Below are positions 4,758 to 7,981 of a stretch of 40,022 bases of DNA, piece after piece; position 1 is the first letter of the stretch, and each line of letters opens with the position of its first letter. Below the pieces are notes generated by a model that saw only the letters and a list, made by a program, of their open reading frames with translations, was not told the origin of the DNA and ran no database searches. The translations under genes were made by a program, and so were the position numbers. Origin of the DNA: Acidobacteriota bacterium (GTDB lineage: Bacteria; Acidobacteriota; Polarisedimenticolia; Gp22-AA2; AA152); assembly GCA_003222305.1 (NCBI GenBank), contig QHVQ01000018.1:1-40022 (forward strand), written 5' to 3'.

Positions 4758-4813
4758 CTTTCGACTTCGTTGCTCTGCCGTTTCTCCCTCAACTCTCGCG
4801 GAGATCCTTCTTC

Positions 4814-5788
4814 ATGACGAGATCCCCGAATGCATTCCCCAGAAAGCGCCTGCTGCCGGGACTGGGGGTCCTGGTTCTGGTGGCCGGGCTCGGATGGTCG
4901 GGAGGGATTCCCCTCCTCGCACAGGCCGCTTCGTCCCCGAGCGGGGCCCAGCCCATGAATGGCCTGGACTTCAGCGGCCTCTCTCCGCAGCAGACCGCCA
5001 CTGCCACCCAGATCCTGAGTGAGATCCGCTGCAACTGCGGGTGCGGCATGACCCTGGCCGAATGCCGTACCAAGGATCCCAATTGCTCCCGTAGCCTTTC
5101 TCTGGCCCGCGGACTGATCGAGGACTTAAAGGGCGGCAAAGACGCGTCGACAGCACGGAATAATCTGCAGGCGGCCTTGGCCAAGGCGGCAACGCCTCCG
5201 CCGACCCCTCCTCCCGTTATGGACCCCAACAAGGTGTTCAAGATCGACGTCACCGGGGCACCTTTCAAGGGACCGAAGGGCGCCGCGGTGACACTGGTGG
5301 AATTCTCCGACTACCAGTGACCCTTCTGCGCTAGGCTTTTGCCTACCCTCGAGCAGGTGCTCGGGGCTTATCCGAAGCAAGTCAAGCTGGTCTTCAAGCA
5401 GTATCCGCTCACCTCGATCCACCAGAACGCCAAGCCAGCGGCCCTGGCGACGGTGGCCGCGCAGAAGCAAGGGAAGTTCTGGCAAATGCACGACAAGATT
5501 TTCCAGAACCAGGCGAATCTGATGGATGCCCAGGGCAAATACCGTTTCGCCGAATTCGCCAAGGAGCTAGGGATGAACGTGGCGAAGTTCGAGACCGACA
5601 TGAAGAGCCCCGAGCTGGAGAAGCTCATCGCCAAGGACCAGAAGGACGGCGCCGATGCCGAGGTGACTGGTACACCGTCCCTTTACCTGAACGGAAAGAA
5701 AGTGGCCGATCGCTCGTTTGAGGGGCTCAAGAAGATGATCGAGGCCGAGCTCTCCAAGGGCGCTTCGGGGGCCACCAAGCCCAACTGA
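4814..5788 (+). CDS. Selenocysteine-containing CcmH-like/DsbA-like thioredoxin fusion
   Basis: A protein of 324 residues if the in-frame TGA at 5318-5320 is read as selenocysteine (U169). The N-terminus has a positively charged signal peptide or anchor (residues 10-40). Next is a Cys-rich segment, RCNCGCGMTLAEC and CSRS (C73, C75, C77, C84, C91), that resembles the start of CcmH-type haem-maturation proteins. A Pro-rich linker follows, then a DsbA-like thioredoxin domain from about residue 140. Its active site reads FSDYQ-U-PFC, where relatives have CPFC. The cis-proline loop is GTPSLYLNG (P288). The frame continues intact on both sides of the TGA, and a hairpin with an AGGU loop follows at 5347-5366. 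A periplasmic thiol oxidoreductase is likely. The alternative, a nonsense change of a Cys codon, cannot be excluded from sequence alone. Confidence 0.8.
5318..5320 (+). other. In-frame TGA read as selenocysteine
   Basis: The codon stands where the N-terminal, attacking cysteine of the thioredoxin CxxC motif is expected, giving U-P-F-C. UxxC redox motifs are a known form of bacterial selenoprotein. Reading frame and homology resume in the very next codon. Confidence 0.75.
5347..5366 (+). promoter_or_regulatory. Candidate bacterial SECIS hairpin
   Basis: CCTCGAGC pairs with GCTCGGGG (eight pairs, one of them G-U) around the tetraloop AGGT. The loop begins 35 bases after the TGA, within the usual bacterial distance. 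Its AGGU matches the start of the E. coli fdhF SECIS loop (AGGUCU), in which SelB recognises G and U. A second small hairpin (TAGGC-TTTT-GCCTA, 5332-5345) lies between it and the TGA. The element lies inside the coding frame, as bacterial SECIS elements do. Confidence 0.6.
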
Positions 5789-5901
5789 GCTGCGCGCGGG
5801 GCCCGCAAGTAACGAAGCCGCCTGTCGGTCGAACCGCATTCCCCTCAGTGCCCCTCCAGCTTTCCGCTCTCCAGGTCCTCGATCATCCTTTGGACTCGGC
5901 T
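5743..5901. repeat. 159-bp direct repeat, copy 1
   Basis: Identical over 159 bases to 6844-7002, in the same orientation and offset by 1101 bases. This copy is in its natural setting: it holds the last 46 bases of the selenoprotein gene, the 56-base gap, and the last codons of the TPR gene on the other strand. It is therefore the likely source copy. Confidence 0.9.
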
Positions 5902-6909
5902 TGCCGTCGGCTTGGGAGGCCGGAGTTCCAGGCAGCGACGGAAATGCTCCAGTGCCATCGCCTTTCCCCCAGGGCGTCCGGCATAGATCACTCCTAGGTT
6001 TTGATGGAGCTCGGGTTGGTCCGGGCGCGCTGCCAGCGACATGAGGTAGTAACGCTCCGCCTGCTCCCCCTCCCCCTGCTGCTGTCTGAGATAGCCCAGG
6101 AGTGCCGGCGCCTCCCACTGCGACGGGTCCAACTCTAGAGATCGGTGAAGCTCGCTCTCTGCCTGGCCTCGCCTACCCAGGCCGAGCAGGGCCTCTCCCA
6201 ACCCCCTCCGCGCCACGGGAGAAGCACCATCGATGTGCACCGCCTCCTCAAAGGCCTCGAGTGCTTTCCCCATCTCGCGGCGCTGCAGATAGAGATCGCC
6301 CAAGCTGGAAAGAATCCGCAGAGAGGGCGGACTTAAACGAAGAGCCTCGAGCAGCTCCGCCTCGGCCCTCTCCATCTCCCCCCGGGCCTGATACAACGCG
6401 GCCAGGTTGTTATGAGGATCCGGAGAACGAGGATCAAGACTTGCAGCGCGGCGATAGGAGGCCTCCGCCTCCTCGATGCGGCCCAGGGCCCGGTAGGCAT
6501 TGCCAAGGTTGTTGTGAAGGGAGGCGCTCCCGGGAGCCTTGAGCAGCGCGGACTGCAGCAGCGCCACCGCCTCGCCCCCCTGACCTAAATCCGTCAGCGT
6601 TACGGCGAGATTTCTTCGGGCGGGTTCGAAATCATCGTAGAGCGCCAGACACCGACGGTAGTTATCCGCCGCCCTTGCAAGGTCGCCTCTGCGGCGATAG
6701 GCGTTGGCCAGGTTATAACGGACCTTGGCACTCCTCGGGCACACCTTGACCGCCGAGCGGAAGAGAGTGTAATCGTCTTTCCAGTCCCGGTTCCTCTCCC
6801 GGGTGCGCGCGCCCAGGCACGCGACCAAGAGAAATAAAACCACGGCCGAGCTCTCCAAGGGCGCTTCGGGGGCCACCAAGCCCAACTGAGCTGCGCGCGG
6901 GGCCCGCAA
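5845..6909 (-). pseudogene. TMTC-like TPR protein, C-terminal part
   Basis: This is the C-terminal half of a membrane-anchored TPR protein whose N-terminal half is at 7001-7981. Native sequence begins at about 6843 (VVLFLLVACLGARTRERNRDWKDD), a last membrane helix and the short link typical of TMTC-like proteins. Tetratricopeptide repeats follow to near the C-terminus; repeated NLGNAYRALG- and NLAALYQARG-type helices are visible. The first 20 or so residues of the open frame are translated from the second copy of the 159-bp repeat and are not real. The missing middle should contain several membrane helices. Without it this half lacks a start signal of its own, so it is probably not made, unless the break is an assembly error. 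Confidence 0.75.
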
Positions 6910-7002
6910 GTAACGAAGCCGCCTGTCGGTCGAACCGCATTCCCCTCAGTGCCCCTCCAGCTTTCCGCTCTCCAGGTCCTCGATCATCCTTTGGACTCGG
7001 CT
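6844..7002. repeat. 159-bp direct repeat, copy 2 (inside the TMTC/TPR gene)
   Basis: A perfect copy of 5743-5901 that replaces the middle of the TMTC-like gene. The junction at 7002/7003 itself creates the TAG that ends the N-terminal fragment. At the other edge GGCCGAG may have served as microhomology. A copy of a gene tail inside the same gene suggests template switching, or a misassembly of a repeat path. Confidence 0.9.
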
Positions 7003-7981
7003 AGCCGAGAAACGCCAGAGTCGCGATCACCGCCACCCCCAGGACCGCGCCGGGATCGGAAACTCCATTCACCGGGACAATCTGCGGGGCGGAGTAGTCA
7101 GCCGAGAGTTTCGCCGGAAAGACGAACAGCCCCAAATAGCGGCACGTAAGGAACAATGCCGTCACCACCCGCCGTGTGGCAGGAACGTGGGCCAAGGGGT
7201 TGTCGATCGGAGGAATCGCGCCCGGCTCCATGAGGACGCCGAGCACGCGCGCCCGTAGGAGCAGATAGACGCCCGCGATGGCTACCAGAATCACCAGTTC
7301 CGTGACCCGCAAGCGCCGCTGGGTTCCCTCCGGCCGCCCCATCAACTGATCCGTGAGCAACACTAGACCCGGATAGGCTAGGGCATTTTCCTTGGCCAGT
7401 ATCGCCAGGAAGAAGAGGACCGCGGAGCCGGCGAACACTGCGTTTCGCCTCCGTGAACTCCCCGCAGGGAACCTATCCAAAAGGAGGGCGGAGAGGATGA
7501 AAAGGGCCGAGAGGATCTCGGCGCGCCCCACCACTCCCGCCACCGCCTCGCTGAGGAGAGGATGCACGCAGAAGAGCGCGGCTCCCGCTAAGGGAAGAAA
7601 GCCCCAGCCGAAGAGCCTGGTCAGGAGGGCCATCAGTGTCATGCAGACCAGGGTATGGAGGAGAAGATTGACCAGGTGGAATGTCCATGGAGCTCCCCCC
7701 CCCGCGGCGTAATTGAGGGCAAAGGAGAGGATCGTGACGGGCCGATAGAGTCGGTTGGATCTCCCCTCCCCGGACCAGTAGGGAGTAACCCACAGCCCCG
7801 CGAGTCCCGAGAGAGAGCGCAGGTTCTGGTTTTCTTGGATGACGACCCGGTCATCGAAGACGAAGCCGTTACCCAATGTGTTGACGTAACTCCCTAGGGA
7901 GAGGAGAGCGATAACCAGAAAGGAGAAAACAGGGGGCAACTTTAAGGGGCTTGCCGGGTGTGGGGCCAATGGGCGGCTCAA
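7001..7981 (-). pseudogene. TMTC-like membrane protein, N-terminal part
   Basis: A 326-residue fragment with about eight hydrophobic helices. It shows the landmarks of bacterial TMTC-like (DUF1736/TPR) proteins: an acidic FVFDDRVV loop after the first helix, NRLYRPVTILSFALN, FHLVNLLLH, GRAEILSALF and AKENALAYPG. These proteins resemble O-mannosyltransferases, but their role in bacteria is uncertain. The frame ends in a TAG formed at the edge of repeat copy 2, and the rest of the gene continues at 6843 in another frame. The start is probably TTG 7981, with GAGG just before it; this is a weak call. It follows the exported protein at 8019-8726 by 37 bases, so the two were likely cotranscribed. 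Confidence 0.75.

Follow-up and report, generated by a model that had tools for sequence, protein, structure and literature searches.

DsbA-like and DsbG-like proteins with a UxxC active site, in which U is selenocysteine (Sec), are established selenoproteins (PMC1088965, PMC1794560, PMC9312934, PMC13188914), as the sequence-only reading of the window (the whole stretch of DNA analysed, 40,022 nucleotides of Acidobacteriota contig QHVQ01000018.1) also stated. The gene described here has in common with these proteins a Sec codon at the first position of a thioredoxin-fold CxxC motif and a DsbA/Thioredoxin_4 domain. Its frame (4814-5788) begins with ATG, runs uninterrupted for 168 sense codons and meets an in-frame TGA as codon 169, where the first cysteine of the DsbA CxxC motif belongs, before continuing open through P-F-C to a TGA stop codon at 5786-5788 (Table 1). 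All of this had been read correctly from the letters, as had the positions of the five N-terminal cysteines (C73, C75, C77, C84 and C91).

Table 1. Positions of the gene and its parts in the window, with the basis of each assignment.
Feature	Position	Strand	Basis or remark
Putative ribosome-binding site, CGGAG	4799..4803	+	10 nt before ATG; sequence inspection
CDS of a 324-residue selenoprotein, TGA169 as Sec	4814..5785	+	Frame and orthologue alignment
Probable export signal, RKRLLPGLGVLVLVAGLGWSGGIPLLAQA	4814..4927	+	Sequence inspection; end approximate
N-terminal Cys-rich CcmH-like domain (motif 5030-5095)	4955..5188	+	Invariant Cys, hhalign, profile match, helical model
DsbA-like thioredoxin-fold domain	5264..5746	+	Pfam PF13462/PF01323; Foldseek BdbD/DsbA
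UGA codon 169, Sec, first residue of UPFC	5318..5320	+	Frame, column alignment, codon conservation
Cys172, resolving residue of UxxC	5327..5329	+	Sequence; invariant in alignment
Small hairpin TAGGC[TTTT]GCCTA (UAGGCUUUUGCCUA)	5332..5345	+	Identical in three species; without loop G
Probable SECIS hairpin, CCTCGAGC[AGGT]GCTCGGGG	5347..5366	+	Published bSECIS rules (PMC13188914)
Cis-proline codon, TGTP loop, P288	5675..5677	+	Sequence and alignment

A TGA codon in this place could be a nonsense change or a miscall in an ordinary gene for a CxxC DsbA protein, making the locus a pseudogene or a sequencing or assembly error, and the source genome is indeed a fragmented draft (223 contigs and 2.8 Mb, 87% complete, with the window as contig 98). 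However, two independent genomes of the same genus (G201 and G137) have TGA in the same column, within FSDYQUPYC, and are similar to our gene on both sides of it, with full similarity downstream (72% and 69% identity). The codon is therefore shared by three species whose proteins are about 70% identical, with frames intact on either side and a peak of synonymous constraint just downstream. As both congeners share the TGA column and the downstream similarity, chance or sequencing error is excluded as the origin of the codon, in line with the original argument that a random nonsense change would rarely fall there, and the pseudogene or error explanation, already contradicted by the orthologues, is extremely improbable.

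Alignment of homologues showed that the column alternates between Cys and Sec. A genome of the same family (G092) has CPYC there, in a protein 64% identical to the Sec protein, and order-level relatives have Cys in a phylum-wide comparison; the named relatives are Acidobacteriota (for example L081, Acidobacteria gp22, 47% identical). Sec was also met within the same fused architecture in a Candidatus Solibacter usitatus MAG (L090), and a genome of the same class (G271; L027:883-2442 / L065) encodes the Cys-rich domain followed by two tandem DsbA domains, both UPFC, with near-identical SECIS hairpins after the two UGA codons. In a phylogeny of 93 DsbA domains, in which many deep forks are weakly placed and label changes were counted with gain and loss not polarised, the fused family needs at least three Cys/Sec changes, the starred branches forcing three for the fused Sec group. 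Sec is thus found in three or more places of the fused family, the relative with two UxxC domains being one of them.

The source genome encodes the complete machinery for Sec insertion, all four of selA, selB, selC and selD being present. SelB scored 339 bits, above its curated cut-off, tRNA-Sec (selC) scored 75 bits and was also called by ARAGORN, with anticodon TCA, and selA lies in two pieces at two contig ends, split by a contig break. The selD gene (L048, 364 bits) is interrupted by a single TGA, which lies in frame at the GGUAAK site, so SelD too is probably a selenoprotein. Both congeners have selB; tRNA-Sec was found in G137, and the same search did not find it in G201 (89% complete) or in the genome to which the Sec-bearing L090 belongs.

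Among the three Sec orthologues, 188 columns are identical in amino acid (Met and Trp excluded) and 40% of these use the same codon. Just one run of identical codons reaches a length of four, and it comprises 11 (codons 172-182) directly downstream of the UGA; a run of at least that length arose in 14 of 100,000 shuffles of codon identity among the amino-acid-identical columns. This stretch covers a small hairpin, UAGGC[UUUU]GCCUA (5332-5345), and most of a second, CCUCGAGC[AGGU]GCUCGGGG (5347-5366). Compared with Rfam at a cut-off of E <= 1, the locus gave no match, and the SECIS was therefore judged by published bSECIS rules, namely a loop of 3-9 nt with G in the first two loop positions, a stem of 4-16 bp, a spacing of 16-37 nt and an MFE of -7.5 or lower (PMC13188914). 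The second hairpin, with an 8-bp stem, a loop AGGU (G second), a distance of 34 nt from the UGA and an energy of -13.1 kcal/mol, satisfies all four rules in all three Sec species, G201 having two one-sided changes that preserve pairing, and the Cys orthologue has no corresponding SECIS-model hairpin. Synonymous recoding produced any model hairpin in 5-8% of cases and an equally strong one in about 1-3%. When the first 64 nt were folded by themselves, the result did not reach significance (z -1.23), and it was conservation, not this folding, that was decisive. The first hairpin occupies the place where a SECIS is usually found, but it lacks a loop G and was discarded as a candidate for that reason. 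The SECIS would then lie close to the upper limit of the permitted spacing, a point against the assignment; the first hairpin may act as a spacer.

Unfused Sec DsbA paralogues in the same phylum (one of them in G137) have a GGUC loop only 18-19 nt from the UGA, in GAGGGUCGGUCCGACCCUC-like hairpins, and thus the distal arrangement is peculiar to the fused gene among those examined. A separate DsbA paralogue with UPFC or UPYC and without the Cys-rich domain occurs in many genomes of the class (L055-L064, L074-L080); its SECIS is highly conserved and it scores below the NF041057 cut-off (L056, 111.5 bits). In Myxococcales Baikal-deep-G131 (L148, frame +1, residues about 1774-2672), one chain strings together four DsbA domains whose active sites read U, C, C and U in turn, both UGA codons preceding GAGGGUCGGUCCGACCCUC hairpins. 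Directly after the active-site Cys codon of the G092 gene (L019) stands GCGAGGGTCGAGCC, which looks like the opening part of the SECIS in the paralogues and is perhaps a SECIS that decayed after a Sec-to-Cys reversion.

If the UGA were instead a functional stop, the product would be a free Cys-rich CcmH-like protein, the DsbA half being translated separately or never. Table 11 yields just such a 168-residue ORF (automatic annotation with it would cut the gene at codon 168), and the Cys-rich domain does occur elsewhere as short standalone proteins. Yet the DsbA half has been conserved in the same frame, the UGA falling on its active-site residue, the Cys orthologues carry both halves in one chain, and the Sec machinery is complete and accompanied by a SECIS-model hairpin, all of which makes termination as the normal outcome very unlikely; partial termination at the UGA may occur. 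TGA169 is accordingly read as Sec, a coding assignment demonstrated by comparison of sequences, because of the Sec machinery, the TGA/Cys alternation in the column and the conserved hairpin region that follows the UGA, and the initial proposal of a selenoprotein is borne out; of the findings named with it as refuting ones, neither a genome without selC or selB nor a stop in all close homologues with no similarity downstream was observed.

The read-through protein matches Pfam Thioredoxin_4 (E 2.5e-25, residues 151-311) and DSBA (3.5e-22, residues 160-298), both matches spanning TGA169. With a profile score above cut-off, UxxC and cis-Pro it belongs to the DsbA-like superfamily (PF01323/PF13462), and Pfam and alignment alike confirmed the DsbA-like sequence that had been noticed from UxxC through the cis-proline loop. 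AlphaFold modelled both domains with confidence (mean pLDDT 81.5; residues 1-44 of low confidence), the Cys-rich domain as helical. The best Foldseek matches, which are BdbD/DsbA structures, cover the DsbA domain, and none of them extends over the N-terminal domain; ScsC structures also occur among the matches to the DsbA domain.

CcmH works in trans with a TlpA/CcmG-type protein, and the likeness to CcmH first seen in the N-terminal segment held as a remote similarity but not as a Pfam family match. Eight of its residues (C73, C75, C77, M79, C84, D88, C91 and S94) do not vary among the 12 to 14 homologues compared, the five Cys being constant in all 14. Pfam CcmH (PF03918) did not match this protein and matched 3 of 14 isolated N-terminal domains weakly (best E 0.014, below the gathering cut-off); a PDB search with the N-terminal profile gave a weak CcmH match alone (2kw0, E 0.72). 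The CcmH proteins of this Acidobacteriota clade have a CxCGC motif instead of CxxC, and hhalign matched the N-terminal domain to them with 92.7% probability (E 4e-7) over 47 columns, both profiles being small and Cys-rich. As Pfam support is weak or absent but the comparison with the clade's CcmH matches, we name the domain CcmH-like and not CcmH; the source genome also has a separate CcmH gene (L169) above the Pfam cut-off. Of 396 genomes from the phylum, 46 have a match to the module, which also forms the C-terminal end of a redoxin/TlpA-type protein and is present in short proteins that lack a DsbA domain; judged from these sequences, it is a repeated companion of thioredoxin folds. In L190-L201, proteins of about 300 residues, the CxCxC module lies near the C-terminus, L190 having a redoxin/TlpA-type domain.

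The N-terminal domain of the selenoprotein might instead be structural or metal-binding (for copper, say) and functionally unrelated to CcmH, which would bring the protein nearer to ScsC or to a copper-handling DsbA. A CxCxCxM motif would be apt for binding soft metals, the DsbA-domain matches include ScsC structures and the Pfam similarity to CcmH is weak, but the profile match to the clade's own CcmH and the lack of copper genes among the neighbours examined speak against this alternative, which we regard as possible, if rather doubtful. The neighbours (a DUF1015 protein, an aminotransferase and TPR proteins) include no operon partner tying the gene to cytochrome c assembly, and comparison of gene neighbourhoods gave no functional link. 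On the minus strand at 5845-7981 lie frames for a TPR protein and for a membrane protein of the TMTC type (DUF1736); they may be one gene split in two, since in L207 the counterpart is a single protein of 721 residues. All three Sec-bearing species encode VKOR, a protein able to take the place of DsbB, and it was not found in the Cys-bearing G092.

We consider it highly probable that the gene encodes a Sec-containing DsbA-like oxidoreductase, probably exported, SECIS-directed and with a CcmH-like N-terminal module. SelB and tRNA-Sec would insert Sec at the UGA under the direction of the hairpin within the CDS, and a location outside the cytoplasm would follow from the probable signal sequence. 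In U169-P-F-C172, Sec169 would be the attacking residue, exchanging disulfides with extracytoplasmic substrates via a Sec-S intermediate, either by attack on a substrate disulfide or by transfer of the Sec169-Cys172 selenenylsulfide, and a membrane VKOR partner of the DsbB type would presumably re-oxidise it. The CxCxCxM...C...C module may take part in the exchange in cis, as a further site for redox chemistry or metal handling, and that it feeds the DsbA active site in this way, much as CcmH serves its TlpA/CcmG-type partner in trans, is a plausible suggestion, offered tentatively. A larger claim, of a new type of redox enzyme in which the CcmH-like CxCxC module and the Sec DsbA domain form an in-cis relay maturing exported thiol or metal proteins, with Sec inserted via an unusually distal SECIS whose conserved spacer hairpin restores the usual effective loop distance, is on balance unlikely.

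The prokaryotic selenoproteome gains an architecture, that of an oxidoreductase made of two modules and probably exported. Exchange between Sec and Cys has happened repeatedly in this family, and one relative has Sec twice in a single chain. The 64% identical Cys/Sec pair from one family is suited to asking what advantage a DsbA domain draws from Sec, and the unusually spaced SECIS to testing recognition by SelB.

A literature search for CcmH, selenocysteine and DsbA combined found no paper, most subscription journals lying outside it; the sequence-only reading likewise did not know this fusion with Sec to be described. A Cys-rich N-terminal domain is not known from the accounts of UxxC selenoproteins (PMC1088965, PMC1794560, PMC13188914), from which our gene also differs in its distal SECIS and the extra hairpin before it. 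The best NCBIfam match is NF041057 (Rcas_1661 family thioredoxin-like (seleno)lipoprotein), whose alignment takes in the DsbA part (residues 115-311 alone) at 91.5 bits, below the curated cut-off of 190. With CcmH (PF03918) of the CxCxC type of these Acidobacteriota, the protein shares the CxCGC core, the next Cys and a helical extension with a conserved G, but it has extra Cys and Met positions (CxCxCxM...CR..D..C..S) and a DsbA fusion, lacks the C-terminal membrane helix and falls below Pfam thresholds. The catalytic-domain fold is held in common with ScsC, BdbD and Gram-positive DsbA structures (3eu3, 3gyk, 4xvw), proteins which to our knowledge have neither a Cys-rich CcmH-like module nor Sec. 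The parts are known, and it is the combination of a Sec DsbA domain with a CcmH-like Cys-rich domain that appears to be undescribed.
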